64,000 nucleotides of DNA from Desulfosporosinus sp. FKB. Its GTDB lineage: Bacteria > Bacillota > Desulfitobacteriia > Desulfitobacteriales > Desulfitobacteriaceae. The translations under genes were made by a program, and so were the position numbers. Of this stretch, positions 4,428 through 23,702 are shown piece after piece; the stretch's first letter is position 1, and each line of letters begins with the position of its first letter. Under the pieces are notes generated by a model. That model saw only the letters and a program-made list of their open reading frames with translations. It was not told the DNA's origin and did not search any database. The stretch covers positions 1-64,000 of the forward strand of contig NZ_NADJ01000015.1 of the NCBI RefSeq assembly GCF_002196705.1, read 5' to 3'.

Positions 4428-5384
4428 CTAAGTCTCAGCAATGACTTTTCCTAGTTCAGTGAGGTCATAGCCGCCTAATCCTTGCAATTCAGCTTTAAAC
4501 TCGTCGGATTGGATTATTTCAAAAATCGCGTCAAAGGCAGGATTGTTAAGATCTTCTTTTTTCAGGACCATATCATAGTGCTCTTTTTGGAGAGGTATGA
4601 AGTCAATTTCCTGTACTTGTAAACTGGCTTTTTCATTGCCAATACCAAGATCCGCATCGCCACGAGCAACAGTACTGGCAATGGCGAGATGAGAATGAAA
4701 TTCTCTCATATAGCCATTGATAGAACGACCTGAAATGCCCATTTTGCGCAAGTGTTCATCGAGTAATATTCTTGTACCACTGCCTTTTTCACGGTTGATA
4801 ATTGCAATATCTGAACGGCATAAATCGTTCCAATCTCTAATGTTTTTCGGATTTCCTTTCGCTATATAAAAACCCTGCATACGGCTGGCAAGGCGGATAA
4901 TAAGACAGGGAGTTCCCGGCAGCATTCTTTCAATGTATGGCACATTGTATTCTCCCGTTTTGCCATCCCACATATGCGCGGTTGCCACTTGAACCTCTCC
5001 TTGATAAAGTGCGTATATGCCGTTATAACTTCCTTCATAGGAGCGCAGGGCACGAATTCCCTTGGGATGGCAATCTAAGTAACGGCATAAAACATCTAAA
5101 ATAAGGTCCTGACCAGAAATCACAAAAGATCTGTTTCTATGCGGTATTTTTTCATAAGTGAGTGAGGGAACATAGCTGTTTGGATCTGGAGAAAATGTGC
5201 TGATAGGTTTGGAGTCTTTACTTTTGTTTTTATAGTTTTCAACATCTTCTAAATCAACACGCAATTTTTTCCCTGCTCTGTAAGCATTTAATTCTCTGCG
5301 TTTGATTAAATCATAAACGGTACTTTTGGAAATTTTCAATACGTCAGCAACTTCTTGCGGTGTTAAGGCCTTGTTTTCAACCAT
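4428..5384 (-). CDS. Molybdate-binding-domain transcription regulator (HTH + periplasmic-binding-like domain)
   Basis: A DNA-binding regulator of 318 residues. Residues 1-55 are an excisionase/MerR-type helix-turn-helix (LTPQEVADVLKISKSTVYDL, then AYRAGKKLRVDLEDVENY). Residues from about 85 on are a type-2 periplasmic-binding-protein fold of the COG1910 / PF12727 kind, with SFVISGQDLILDVL, REKGSGTRILLDEHL and DADLGIGNEKA. In this family the domain is linked to molybdate or tungstate and the proteins replace ModE in many Firmicutes. It is transcribed divergently from the hutP-anf block, which fits control of an Mo-independent nitrogenase by molybdenum supply. A weak promoter (ATTATA complement at 5423-5428) lies upstream. 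Family confident; ligand and target are inferred. Confidence 0.85.
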   Translation of the reverse strand: MVENKALTPQEVADVLKISKSTVYDLIKRRELNAYRAGKKLRVDLEDVENYKNKSKDSKPISTFSPDPNSYVPSLTYEKIPHRNRSFVISGQDLILDVLCRYLDCHPKGIRALRSYEGSYNGIYALYQGEVQVATAHMWDGKTGEYNVPYIERMLPGTPCLIIRLASRMQGFYIAKGNPKNIRDWNDLCRSDIAIINREKGSGTRILLDEHLRKMGISGRSINGYMREFHSHLAIASTVARGDADLGIGNEKASLQVQEIDFIPLQKEHYDMVLKKEDLNNPAFDAIFEIIQSDEFKAELQGLGGYDLTELGKVIAET

Positions 5385-5525
5385 AGTGTTACAACGAACC
5401 TTTCATCAGCAATATATTTACAATTATATCACATGTTAATACTTTGAAAACCAAAAAGAAAACCTATGACTAGTGATGTTTGCATTGAGCAAAGCGAAGG
5501 ATTATGTATTAAGTTTATATAAGTA

Positions 5526-5561
5526 TTGACACGAACCAAATGCTATGTGTATAATGATACA
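5526..5561 (+). promoter_or_regulatory. SigA-type promoter of hutP-anf with palindrome over the -10 box
   Basis: TTGACA (5526-5531), an 18-bp spacer and TATAAT (5550-5555). A 14-bp inverted repeat TGTATAATGATACA (5548-5561) covers the -10 box and could be an operator, possibly for the divergent molybdate-domain regulator. The promoter motif is clear; the operator role is a guess. Confidence 0.7.
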
Positions 5562-5671
5562 AAATAACACCAAATGGAAATAAATCAATAGTTATAAGTT
5601 GCAAAACGGAAAAATCAATTGACAAAACAATACACTCTGGAAAATAGGTTGAGTAAAAAGGAGGGCTAAGC

Positions 5672-6112
5672 TTGCAGCTGACTGTAGATCAAGAAAGAAA
5701 GCCTTCCGTAGAAAAAGCAGCGTTACTGCTGGCTCTGACTCAAACAAGAGAAGAAGAAGAAAAACTCAAGGTATCTTTCAGTGAAGTGTTTGACATACGT
5801 TGCGGTGTGACTGAACTTGGGGGAAAGGTTGCCAATCTTCAACATACAGGAAAACTGACAAATTCGGTTATTTCAACAGCATTAAATATAGGTATCATTC
5901 CAGAAGAAGCCCGAAAGATTCACGCGCTTATTCATGCGACTTTGGAAGCCAGCAACAGCGTTTTTACTCATACTAACAGCAACGCTGATATGGCTCTGAA
6001 AATTGGATTAACAACAAATGTTGAATGGCTTGCTGTAGCAATTTATGGTCGTTCTTCTCTTCATCCGCTATTGGAACACGCTCGGGTGGGGTTGGGGGTT
6101 ATGCATCTCTAG
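5672..6112 (+). CDS. HutP-family RNA-binding antiterminator
   Basis: A 146-residue protein close in length to Bacillus subtilis HutP (about 148). The diagnostic segment HALIHATLEA and the C-terminus GVGLGVMHL match HutP's SHALYHATMEAL and GVGINHI. In HutP three histidines bind Mg2+ together with L-histidine; the equivalents here are H84, H88 and H145. The Arg-bearing segment that touches L-histidine in HutP (after the second His) is different here, so the ligand may not be histidine. HutP hexamers bind mRNA at spaced NAG triplets and block terminator formation. The TTG start has AAGGAGGG 6 nt upstream. It lies at the head of the anf block, with a NAG-rich, terminator-bearing leader directly downstream. 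No hut genes are nearby. Confidence 0.85.
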   Translation: MQLTVDQERKPSVEKAALLLALTQTREEEEKLKVSFSEVFDIRCGVTELGGKVANLQHTGKLTNSVISTALNIGIIPEEARKIHALIHATLEASNSVFTHTNSNADMALKIGLTTNVEWLAVAIYGRSSLHPLLEHARVGLGVMHL

Positions 6113-6177
6113 TTAGAGTGAAAGTAGTGAAAGAGTGGAAAAGTGACAAGAGAACGTTCAATAAACTAACCTTATAA

Positions 6178-6280
6178 ACAATTTCATAATGGGCAGCAAA
6201 TCAGATGATGATTTGAAGTGGAAAAGTGTTTTAGTGGGCCTTTAATTTAGATGGGAATTAAGGGCTCACTTTGTTTTTTT
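6178..6280 (+). promoter_or_regulatory. Leader module 1: hairpin, three NAGs, intrinsic terminator
   Basis: Order of elements: small hairpin AAATCA-GATGA-TGATTT, then AAG..AAG..TAG with 8-nt spacing in AAGTGGAAAAGTGTTTTAG, then a 14-bp terminator stem (6233-6246 with 6257-6270, two G-U pairs) and a T-run at 6271-6280. The last AG forms the first pair of the terminator stem, so a protein bound there would hinder terminator folding. Nearly the same sequence recurs at 6613-6714. Confidence 0.85.
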
Positions 6281-6304
6281 CTAAGTTTTAAAGGAGGTGA
6301 TGCG

Positions 6305-6363
6305 ATGGTGCCTAATAATGGGAGAGTGCGATGATAAGAGGAAGTTTCGGTGGTAGCAATTGA
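6305..6363 (+). other. Two overlapping micro-ORFs in the anf leader
   Basis: A near-perfect Shine-Dalgarno (AAGGAGGTGAT, 6291-6301) precedes ATG 6305, encoding MVPNNGRVR. Its stop overlaps a second ATG at 6331 (ATGA), encoding MIRGSFGGSN up to 6363. They sit just after terminator 1. They could be leader peptides that put ribosomes on the NAG array, or chance. Confidence 0.4.
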
Positions 6364-6612
6364 GGTAAATGAGTTGGCAAGCAGTAAATTAATCAGGAAT
6401 TTGTAAGTAACGAAGGGAGGCCTGGAAAATAGGAGATTGGTCTTTAGTTGGGTAGTAGTGTCAAGTAATTGAAGTAAGCAAGTGGTAAAGTGACCAAAGG
6501 AACCAAGTTACCAAAGTGGCGGAGTGACAAAGTGACTAAATTGGTAATGTGATCAAGAGTGGTAGAGTGATCAAGTGATATGAGTTTTATTGCTAAGCTC
6601 AGAAGAATTAGT
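6337..6612 (+). promoter_or_regulatory. NAG-triplet array with about 8.4-nt period, probable HutP-type binding region
   Basis: AG dinucleotides recur every 8-9 nt on the transcribed strand. The cleanest run starts at 6473, 6481, 6489, 6498, 6506, 6515, 6523, 6531, then 6558, 6566, 6574, 6583, 6596 and 6610. Weaker members continue upstream (6355, 6363, 6372, 6380, 6406, 6414, 6431, 6446, 6454, 6464). Locally it reads as degenerate AAGTGACA octamers. A shorter run (6117, 6126, 6134, 6142, 6149) begins right after the hutP stop. HutP contacts NAG triplets at regular spacing, so this looks like an extended landing platform. Confidence 0.7.
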
Positions 6613-6714
6613 ACAATTTCATAATTCGGCAGAAAATCAGACGATGATTTGGAGTGGAAAAGTGTTTTAGTGGGCCTTTAATAGACAGAATTAGGGGCTC
6701 ACTTTGTTTTTTTT
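6613..6714 (+). promoter_or_regulatory. Leader module 2: hairpin, three NAGs, intrinsic terminator before anfH
   Basis: Direct repeat of module 1. Hairpin AAATCA-GACGA-TGATTT, the same three NAGs with 8-nt spacing, then a terminator stem (6669-6682 with 6690-6703, three G-U pairs) and a T-run at 6704-6714. The loop region differs from module 1 while the stems are kept, as expected for a selected RNA structure. It ends 40 bp before the anfH start. Confidence 0.85.
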
Positions 6715-6754
6715 CAGAGTCTAAATGGATGGTAATTAGAGAGGAGTTTTTTAA

Positions 6755-7582
<828 letters not shown>

Positions 7583-7619: not shown

Positions 7620-7946
7620 ATGATCATGATTAAAGCGATTGTTAGGCCGGATAAAAAGGAAGTGGTGCTCAATGAACTTTCCCAAGCAGGGTTTCATGCC
7701 GCCACTGTTATTGATGTAGTAGGCCGCGGGAAACAAAAGGGTATTACTTTGGGAGATGTTCTTTATGATGAAATTCCTAAAAGCCTGATCATGTTAGCTG
7801 TTAATGATGGAGACAAAGAGAATGTGCTGGAGGTCATTCTCCAGCATGCCAAAACCAGTGAAAGTGGAGCTTTCGGAGATGGGAAAATAATTGTCAGTCC
7901 TATTGATGAAGTATATACCGTCTCAAGCGGCGTTGCAGAGCTGTAA
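7620..7946 (+). CDS. nifI1: NifI1, PII-like nitrogenase regulator
   Basis: GlnB-family protein of 108 residues (MIKAIVRPDKKEVVLNELS at the start; GRGKQKGITLGDVLYDEIPK in place of the usual T-loop; GDGKIIVSPIDEVYTV near the end). In methanogens NifI1 and NifI2 form a complex that inhibits dinitrogenase when ammonium is added and is relieved by 2-oxoglutarate. The uridylylation tyrosine of classic PII is not evident. Start ATG 7620 has AAGGGGGG 8 nt upstream. It lies between anfH and anfD, the standard position in clostridia and archaea. Confidence 0.93.
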   Translation: MIMIKAIVRPDKKEVVLNELSQAGFHAATVIDVVGRGKQKGITLGDVLYDEIPKSLIMLAVNDGDKENVLEVILQHAKTSESGAFGDGKIIVSPIDEVYTVSSGVAEL

Positions 7947-7958
7947 AGGAGTGGCGTA

Positions 7959-8366
7959 ATGAAAGAGATTTTAGCTGTTGTACGAATGAATAAGGTCAGC
8001 GCAACGAAAAAGGCTCTCATTGAAGCTGGAGCTGCCGGTTTTACAGCCACTAAGGTTATGGGGCGCGGCAAACTGGTAGAAGACAAATCCATCATTGCTG
8101 AACGGAGAAAAACTTTGTTAGCTCTGGCTCAGAAAGATGATCAGACTACAGATAAGATGATCACCGAATTTTTAGATGGCACCCGTTTATTTCCGCGCAG
8201 GATGTTTAATATTCTGGCCCATGACGAAGCTGTACCCAAGATTGTTTCAGCGATTATTAAGGCCAATAAGACAGAGTACAAAGTGGGTGACGGCAAAATC
8301 TTTGTGCTGCCGGCGCTTGATGCGGTCCGAGTTAGAACAAGGGAGTCCGGAGATTCAGCGATCTAA
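7959..8366 (+). CDS. nifI2: NifI2, PII-like nitrogenase regulator
   Basis: Partner of NifI1. Longer than ordinary PII (135 residues) because of the extended T-loop region (GRGKLVEDKSIIAERRKTLLA, then LFPRRMFNILAHDEAV) seen in NifI2 proteins. Ends with the beta strand KVGDGKIFVLPALDAVRVRT. AAAGGAG lies upstream and the gene begins 12 bp after nifI1. Together they would give rapid, reversible switch-off of the Fe-only enzyme by direct binding, independent of ADP-ribosylation. Confidence 0.93.
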   Translation: MKEILAVVRMNKVSATKKALIEAGAAGFTATKVMGRGKLVEDKSIIAERRKTLLALAQKDDQTTDKMITEFLDGTRLFPRRMFNILAHDEAVPKIVSAIIKANKTEYKVGDGKIFVLPALDAVRVRTRESGDSAI

Positions 8367-8394: not shown

Positions 8395-9975
<1,581 letters not shown>

Positions 9976-9990
9976 GGGGGCATGACAGTT

Positions 9991-10353
9991 ATGGCGGAAA
10001 TTATGGAAGATACTCTAAGTGACAAGGTTGAGCAATTGGTGGATTATATTATGAAGTGGTGCCTTTGGCAGTTTCACTCCCGCGCTTGGGACCGGGAGAG
10101 ACAAAACGAGGGGATTCTCAGTAAAACTCAGCAATTATTGTGCGGGGAGCCTGTCACGCTTGAAACCCCGGCAGACAAATGCTATTGGGTAGATGCTGTA
10201 ATCTTGGTTGAGGATTTTAAAGCTGCGTACCCGTGGTTAGCTTCGATGGACAAACGAGATATTAAATCACTCATGCAGGGGCTTAAAGAGCGCATCAATT
10301 TCTTGACGATTACTGGGTCACTTAATGAAGAGCTTACTGACCCTAAATATTAA
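9991..10353 (+). CDS. anfG: Fe-only nitrogenase delta subunit
   Basis: Third subunit unique to alternative nitrogenases; binds the alpha subunit and is needed for activity. 120 residues with the family hallmarks [34 protein letters not shown] and [16 protein letters not shown] at the end. I chose ATG 9991 since AAGGGGG (9974-9980) is 10 nt upstream; the ATG at 9982 is too close. It starts 15 bp after anfD, so translation is likely coupled. Confidence 0.96.
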
Positions 10354-10412
10354 GGTCAGGAGCTGTGCCGTCACGGTGGGCGTATATATTCAAAAGGAAA
10401 GGGAGTCATGCT

Positions 10413-11807
10413 ATGTCTTGTGAGATCAAAGATAAAGAACGTGCCGGCATTATCAACCCAATATTTACCTGTCAGCCTGCGGGAGCACAATATGCCAGCA
10501 TAGGAATCAAGGATTGTCTGGCGATAGTTCATGGAGGACAGGGTTGTGTCATGTTCGTCCGCTTATTGTTTGCCCAGCATTTCAAGGATAATTTTGATAT
10601 TGCGTCATCTTCAGTGCATGAGGATGGTGCAGTGTTTGGTGCCGTTCATCGCGTCGAGGAAGCGGTTGATGTTGTTCTCATGCGCTATCCCCATGTGAAA
10701 GTCATACCCATTATCACAACTTGCTCGACGGAGGTTATCGGTGATGATATCGATGGTGTGATTCGCAAACTTAACCAAGGGCTTTTAAAAGAAAAGTATG
10801 CTGAGCGGGAGGTCCACCTCATTCCGGTTCATACTCCCAGTTTTAAAGGAAGCCAAGTGACGGGCTACGATGTTGCTCTGGAGGCTTTTGTCCAGACGCT
10901 GGCTCAAAAGGACAAACCCAACGGAAAGCTCAACCTAATAACCGGCTGGGTCAATCCGGGAGATGTAACAGCCCTTAAACATCTTCTGTCGGAAATGCAG
11001 GTGGAGGCAACCGTTCTTTTCGAAATTGAAAGTTTCGATTCTCCTCTGATGCCGGATCCGGATCATAGCGCGGTTTCCCATGGCAGCACTACGGTTGAGG
11101 ATCTGACCGACACAGCGAATGCCTTGGGAACAATTGCGCTAAACAAATACGAAGGCGGAAAAGCCGCTCACTATCTTGAAAAGGAATTTGACGTTCCAGC
11201 CGTCATAGGACCGACTCCTATCGGCATCCGCAATACGGATACCTTTTTGCAGAATCTGAAAAAAATAACCGGAAAACCGATTCCTGAGTCACTCGTTCGC
11301 GAACGAGGGATTGCCATTGATGCGCTGACCGATCTAGTGCACATGTTTTTTGCCGATAAGCGAGTCGCCATTTACGGACATCCTGACTTGGTCATAGGTC
11401 TGGCGGAATTCTGTCTTGATTTGGAGATGAAGCCTGTGCTGCTTCTGCTCGGCGATGACAACGTGACCTATCAGGACGATCCTCGTCTTAAAGCGTTTCA
11501 GGAAAACGTTGATTTCGAAATGCAGGTCATCTGTAATTCAGATCTGTGGGAACTGGAAGATCGGATTAAAAACCAGGGACTGGAGCTTGATCTTATATTG
11601 GGCCATTCCAAAGGGCGCTTCATATCGATTAATAATGATATTCCTATGGTCCGCGTAGGGTTCCCCACTTATGATCGAGCGGGACTGTACCGCCATCCGG
11701 TTGTCGGTTATGCGGGAGCGATATGGCTGGCCGAAGAGATGGCAAATACTCTCTTCAGTGATATGGAACACAAAAAGAATAAAGAATGGATACTGAATGT
11801 ATGGTAG
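10413..11807 (+). CDS. anfK: Fe-only nitrogenase beta subunit
   Basis: Beta subunit, 464 residues, sharing the P-cluster with AnfD. P-cluster ligands are in [18 protein letters not shown] and [12 protein letters not shown]. Other AnfK signatures are [42 protein letters not shown] and the end [15 protein letters not shown] 10413 follows AAAGGGAG by 7 nt; an upstream start at 10365 would add a tail absent from the family. Last gene of the operon; no strong terminator follows, only a long hairpin at 11858-11919. Confidence 0.97.
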
Positions 11808-15319: not shown

Positions 15320-15426
15320 TAGATAGATACTACAAGCCGGATATAACGGGACAGAGCAAATACAAAACCATAAGACAACTGAGATTGGCGGAGATATCAT
15401 AAAGACAGACGGATAACTGAGAGCTT

Positions 15427-15505
15427 GAGCTGTATGTCTTGAAAGGGACACGTACAGTTCTTAGGCGAGAAAAAGGGCGCAATCCCTCTGACTTAGCCGA
15501 CAGTT
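15427..15505 (+). mobile_element. Group II intron 3' remnant (domains V and VI)
   Basis: Positions 15427-15460 fold as a 34-nt domain V: lower stem GAGCTGTAT/CGTACAGTTC, a two-base bulge, and upper stem GTCTT/GGGAC capped by a GAAA tetraloop, with the catalytic AGC triad. A domain VI-like hairpin follows to about 15505. No reverse transcriptase or 5' intron end was found, so only the 3' tail remains, next to the broken surface-protein gene. Confidence 0.8.
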
Positions 15506-23504: not shown

Positions 23505-23552
23505 ATATTACCCAAGTTACATACACACATAAAAGTAGTGCATGATATCGTT

Positions 23553-23702
23553 CAAGCTTTAGCTTCGCAAGGCGATGAAATTGCATTAGAATATGCCTTG
23601 GTTTCGACATATCCTGCTAACCTTCTCATAGTGTCTCCACTACTCCGCGGCAGCAATCCGTATCCCTGCGGTAGCCTCACCTACCGAGTGTTATTTAGTT
23701 CA
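23553..23702 (-). promoter_or_regulatory. M-box (ykoK) Mg2+ riboswitch
   Basis: The minus strand carries the characteristic order GGTAGGTGAGGCTACC, GATACGGATTGCTGCCGC, AGTGGAGACACT, then AGGATATGTCGAAACCAAGG and CATCGCC, closely matching the ykoK leader consensus known from memory. M-box RNAs fold on Mg2+ and expose a terminator, turning off Mg2+ transporters. Position upstream of mgtA and of the terminator at 23468-23504 supports the call. Exact aptamer edges are approximate. Confidence 0.87.

Follow-up and report, generated by a model that had tools for sequence, protein, structure and literature searches.

A candidate HutP antitermination element with an 8-nt AG register in the Fe-only nitrogenase leader of a Desulfosporosinus genome and in related nitrogen loci

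HutP binds its antiterminator site as a hexamer, in a manner that depends on L-histidine and Mg2+, and we take His73, His77, and His138 to form its metal (Mg2+)/histidine site. In the Bacillus subtilis hut system, HutP is encoded just 5′ of the operon, and an AG triad runs into the 5′ arm of a terminator. Parts of this layout recur elsewhere: TRAP, a ring-shaped protein, reads regular arrays of NAG triplets in leaders (GAG/UAG repeats at ~5 nt spacing) and promotes termination in trp, while ANTAR/EutV-type antiterminators use a conserved hairpin before the terminator and have several targets in trans. For nitrogen fixation, how nif is switched on in anaerobic Bacillota without NifA is, to our knowledge, poorly known. 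A nif-adjacent gene of Heliobacterium, ‘orf1’, was reportedly called a possible regulator by Enkh-Amgalan in 2006. A heliobacterium genome report located neither orf1 nor nifA (PMC7143216), and another source gives AG triads at terminators as a HutP signature (PMC7430163). HutP antitermination as such is established for hut. In the open literature we found no paper joining HutP with nitrogen fixation or nitrogenase, although subscription journals may differ, and the RNA element, 8-nt register, arrays, and wider set of nitrogen targets described below appear to be new.

Layout of the HutP-anf locus

The window, i.e., the whole 64,000-nt stretch analyzed here (Desulfosporosinus sp. FKB, contig NZ_NADJ01000015.1, positions 1 to 64,000), carries a HutP gene followed, after a leader of ~640 nt, by an Fe-only nitrogenase operon in the order anfH-nifI1-nifI2-anfDGK. 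The leader holds two near-copies of one block, each with an intrinsic terminator at its end, and the main AG array lies between them:

5526..5555, + strand: sigma-70-type promoter, TTGACA-18-TATAAT, 5′ of hutP; 12/12 consensus matches (putative start, by consensus match only)
5672..6112, + strand: nitrogen-type HutP gene, TTG start, 146 aa (PF09021, E 7.5e-34)
6113..6175, + strand: short AG array 1, with a five-AG chain at 6117-6151
6177..6282, + strand: core RNA element copy 1, with hairpin, AG triad at 6217/6225/6233, and terminator stem 6233-6270
6290..6302, + strand: extended Shine-Dalgarno AAAGGAGGTGATG past terminator 1, then the ATG of a 9-codon ORF, 6305-6334
6464..6611, + strand: main AG array, period ~8.5 nt (shuffle test and chain count)
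6612..6715, + strand: core RNA element copy 2, with hairpin, AG triad at 6653/6661/6669, and terminator stem 6669-6703
6755..7582, + strand: anfH, nitrogenase iron protein (TIGR01287, E 2.6e-138)
7620..8366, + strand: two PII-type genes, nifI1 and nifI2 by position (first, PF00543; second, PRK10858 below cut-off)
8413..11807, + strand: anfD, anfG, and anfK, Fe-only nitrogenase (TIGR01861, TIGR02929, and TIGR02931, all above cut-offs)

The promoter is the single strong + strand promoter-like site within 5380-6760. Both element copies were positive in the terminator scan and gave a fold z of −4.4, with model R1 scores of 99.8 bits for copy 1 in its own genome and 94.4 bits for copy 2, and in both of them three NAG triplets run into the terminator 5′ arm, as the triad does in B. 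subtilis hut. No Rfam family was found at the leader, either at gathering level over the whole window or at E ≤ 1 within 5900-6800; elsewhere in the window, the Rfam scan returned a group II intron domain (15425-15501, + strand) and an M-box riboswitch (23536-23695, − strand).

Two further features accompany these leaders. An extended Shine-Dalgarno TAAGGAGGTGATG stands 3′ of the terminator at varying distance, with a similar sequence within 160 nt in 39/60 elements, often with an ATG plus a tiny ORF that is not conserved, in other cases without any; ribosomes may land there and so protect the long leader. Beside hutP-anf, a divergent gene (4428-5384, − strand) encodes HTH_17 and PBP_like domains, and has relatives near hutP or anf in four other loci (L018, L062, L012, and L060); its product may regulate the alternative nitrogenase in response to metal.

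An initial annotation of the leader had likened its AG array to HutP sites, and the gene directly 5′ of the array does belong to the HutP family (PF09021, 117.2 bits versus a cut-off of 25, covering profile positions 1-128 of 128), so that, as in B. subtilis, a HutP-family protein is encoded just 5′ of the operon. This protein is not the hut-operon HutP, since it scores 37.3 bits with NF002838, the B. subtilis HutP equivalog, against a cut-off of 155. Its HAxxHA and LEH motifs align with 1vea and with hut-type sequences, the HAxxHA and EH positions being kept as in B. subtilis, whereas an extra loop before the final W-A-V strand, present in the hut type, is missing. Eleven of 14 named HutP loci continue with nifI1-nifI2-nifH-nifD, one with nifB/nifV-like genes, one with anf, and one (L012) with other genes. 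Other genera, and a second family (f4) within the class, likewise have nitrogen-type HutP before nif or amt loci. We take the f4 genomes to be heliobacteria; in them, a HutP-family gene stands before nifI1, much as orf1 lies beside nif in Heliobacterium.

HutP-family matches occur in 264/398 sampled genomes of the phylum. A distinct clade, scoring ~165 bits, lies directly before aroH in the host family (L001, L019-L047), and its members lack the metal-site residues. In the HutP tree, the hut group and the aroH group each sit on one branch; because both branches are extremely long, we do not trust the root or the apparent nesting of hut within the nitrogen type.

The core RNA element: structure, register, and distribution

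Alignment of 26 leaders defined a core element made of a GGCACC-stem-GGAG hairpin, three AGs, and an intrinsic terminator with a T-run. With the first AG, in the 3′ side of the hairpin, set as position 0, the second falls at 8 and the third at 16, where it opens the terminator 5′ arm. From 108 model matches, 65 on the sense strand were kept, representing 61 different sequences; the other 43 were weaker and mostly the same hairpins on the opposite strand. Among these 61 non-redundant elements, the triad was exactly 8-8 in 48, near (steps of 7-10) in 11, and absent in 2, a count that is partly built into the model used to find them. Across 59 different sequences, hairpin 1 was 98.3% paired with changes on both sides at 5/7 pairs, and the terminator hairpin showed such changes at 8/15 pairs. 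These covariation counts lean towards the proposed structure because the alignment was fitted to it; none of 500 shuffles reached any of the five measures. The HutP link of the initial annotation stood. What had gone unremarked there is the main invariant feature, which the window carries twice: an 8-8 triad where the conserved terminator begins.

The register of this triad sets it apart from that of hut. Exact 7-7 triads were found in 15/20 hut leaders of the host family and relatives and in 3/5 Bacillus-type hut leaders, with 8-8 triads in 1/20 and 0/5, respectively, for sets that leave out L153 and L159 (followed by a different gene, with hutH not detected) and L058 (683-nt gap). This agrees with the 7-nt period previously assumed for known HutP sites, and the wider spacing noted for the present leader corresponds to a real 8-nt register that is kept in relatives. 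Since hut leaders carry 7-7 and nitrogen elements 8-8 triads, the spacing used seems to depend on the type of HutP even within one genome. The nitrogen system further differs from B. subtilis hut in its hairpin before the triad, its long arrays, its HutP without the extra loop, and its targets, namely genes for fixing and taking up nitrogen, several of them unlinked. Each element has one invariant triad, where hut sites are reported to have two NAG clusters separated by ~20 nt, the second of which might here come from the upstream arrays.

A covariance model search located four copies of the element in the genome itself, two in the anf leader, another ahead of nifI1, and an unlinked one ahead of a 506-aa gene. 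Within the host family, 37/45 genomes matched at E ≤ 0.01, 33 of these above 40 bits, and at order level 34/73 genomes matched at E ≤ 1e-4, every one of them in the host family. In f4, the element occupies nif leaders of 5/9 genomes (66-73 bits); no element was found in the leader of the hutP-nif locus L129. Unlinked elements precede amtB-glnK, nifI1, an NMT1-type ABC transporter, a sigma-54 activator gene, and the 506-aa gene located 3′ of PII and CitMHS-type transporter genes. A conserved ~500-aa gene with a core element was seen at eight loci (L103-L106, L108, and L110-L112), mostly after PII and transporter genes; it has no clear Pfam domain and, in the one member scanned, a weak Sigma70_r4 match.

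Outside the class, the phylum sample gave weak matches of 30-41 bits. Nine of the 11 loci read (L189-L198 and L136, with L199, G443, and the second matches of G414 and G292 left aside) were plain terminators without the hairpin, and eight weaker matches from the class searches were likewise terminator-like. The other two of the 11 were CoA-transferase leads. At L136 and L203 (families f37 and f105), nitrogen-like HutPs are accompanied by a terminator with an 8-8 triad, followed by CoA-transferase genes; the triad is partly built in because both were found with the model.

The periodic AG array

The initial annotation had described a long AG array from 6337 to 6612, and we evaluated its periodicity by spectral analysis and against shuffled sequence. 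For the 37 AGs of this segment, the best period is 8.4 nt; the power at 8-9 nt was matched by none of 2000 dinucleotide-preserving shuffles, and AG pairs 8 or 9 apart numbered 19 versus 9.5 expected (p 0.0005). The shuffle check thus upheld the periodicity, the sole source of which is 6464-6612 (period 8.5 nt, 0/2000 shuffles). A looser continuation back to 6339 had also been proposed and found no support, since 6287-6463 showed no AG periodicity (p 0.48, 5 pairs versus 4.7 expected). Likewise, the 14 steps counted from 6473 to 6610 are too many: the longest chain with 8- or 9-nt steps comprises nine AGs (6464, 6473, 6481, 6489, 6498, 6506, 6515, 6523, and 6531), after which the chain breaks with a 25-nt gap, equal to three periods lacking two AGs, and a 13-nt step. 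The array is biased to one strand (41 AG versus 6 CT in 6290-6611), and part of the main array has a weak predicted fold (z −1.1) rather than staying open.

Conservation of the period in related leaders, named at the outset as a point on which the array might fail, was confirmed. In the 150 nt upstream of all 60 elements, which constitute the unselected spacing test, we counted 245 AG pairs 8 apart versus 103.6 expected; taken singly, 24/60 elements were significant (p ≤ 0.05) and 36/60 were not. In groups of our own choosing, z for the 8-nt spacing was +7.8 for anf second copies, +4.3 for anf first copies, +7.3 for nif leaders of the genus, +4.9 for other genera, and +5.5 for unlinked elements, with these groups leaving out L007, L008, L002/L067, L012, and L060 from the same genus, L124, L126, L127, and L129 from f4, and the arrayless unlinked elements L103-L106, L108, L110-L112, L115, and L117-L119.

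Array length itself is highly variable, from none to a twelve-AG chain in L064. Because arrayless elements exist, the array looks accessory rather than essential, i.e., an adjustable addition to a triad that forms the constant part. It might even be a by-product, a slippage-prone purine repeat beside the triad with no binding role of its own. The nearly perfect 9-mer and 8-mer tandem in the L064 leader fits such an origin, as do the many elements without an array and the differences between close relatives, L109 having far fewer units than the window. However, the 8-nt AG spacing is enriched across genera in which the other bases differ and over the 60 elements together, and the units in the window are alike mainly in AG; we consider a by-product unlikely, though deserving of some weight.

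A proposed nitrogen-type HutP switch

We consider it likely that the nitrogen-type HutP operates this leader as a transcription-antitermination switch. The single promoter 5′ of hutP would yield a constitutive transcript that always includes hutP, and polymerase would meet two intrinsic terminators in series before anfH, so that the default would be termination twice. Once activated by a signal of nitrogen need, HutP would bind the 8-8 AG triad running into the terminator 5′ arm, the bound terminator hairpin could not close, and read-through into the nitrogenase genes would follow. The in-register array would offer extra HutP sites, most likely raising occupancy of the nascent RNA before the terminator forms, and two gates in series would keep leakage of a costly enzyme small. 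The sequence itself shows the gene content, the conserved element with its covarying hairpins and constant triad, the enrichment of the register, and the joint occurrence with HutP; from these we infer binding, antitermination, the direction of the response, the ligand, the number of hexamers, and the role of the array. Points that weigh against the switch are the low NF002838 score, the many elements lacking an array, the L129 leader in which no element was found, the share of the triad count owed to the model, and the predicted weak folding of part of the main array. The array possibly wraps around several hexamers in a TRAP-like manner, as the initial annotation suggested. Its period of 8.4-8.5 nt differs from the ~5 nt of TRAP, to which HutP is unrelated.

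The link to HutP is reflected in the distribution of the two partners. Elements above 40 bits were present in 33/35 family genomes with nitrogen-type HutP and in 0/10 without (Fisher 2e-8, uncorrected for kinship), where some of the 35 HutPs were classed by score and adjoining element rather than by alignment and G026, with an aroH-type HutP interrupted by N, was placed outside the set. In the two exceptions without an element, HutP has lost three His positions of HAxxHA and EH (G005) or hutP lies at a contig edge (G021). Conversely, in G017 (L109) the anf hutP is cut down to a C-terminal remnant while both anf elements are kept and another HutP is present, which makes action in trans likely.

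Could another RNA-binding protein, or a small-molecule aptamer, read the hairpin instead, with HutP merely sharing the nitrogen context? The strong conservation and covariation of the GGCACC..GGAG hairpin would suit such a reader, and HutP binding here is predicted from sequence. Against it stand the co-occurrence just described, the AG triads at terminators recognized as a HutP signature (PMC7430163), and the lack of any Rfam family matching the element; ANTAR/EutV-type antiterminators have a comparable hairpin, but none of the leaders examined showed an ANTAR protein next to it. We therefore regard a different reader as improbable. Repeats 5′ of a gene can be operators, but transcription factor sites acting on DNA are very hard to reconcile with a non-helical period, one-stranded AGs (525 AG versus 106 CT over the leader segments tested for periodicity), and an array lying 3′ of the hutP promoter and 5′ of the terminator. 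Chance periodicity in an A/G-rich leader, to which the signal-free 6287-6463 might point, can scarcely be credited given the 0/2000 shuffles and the pooled 8-nt excess in relatives.

Returning to the HutP switch, a broader reading, to which we give slightly less than even confidence, joins parallel HutP circuits split by register, multi-hexamer arrays, and 8-nt CoA-transferase circuits. Under it, a single cell would employ the 7-nt register for histidine use and the 8-nt register for fixing and taking up nitrogen, HutP would load onto arrays in a filament- or antenna-like fashion with array length tuning the nitrogenase threshold, and CoA-transferase operons of other families may be under related 8-nt HutP circuits.

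Overall, a HutP terminator switch that the leaders of nif, anf, and amt have in common across two families provides a concrete and testable answer to how nitrogen fixation could be switched on where NifA is lacking. If true, a textbook regulator of one operon would have come to govern several nitrogen targets, and two regulons might be kept apart within one cell by as little as a single base of repeat spacing.
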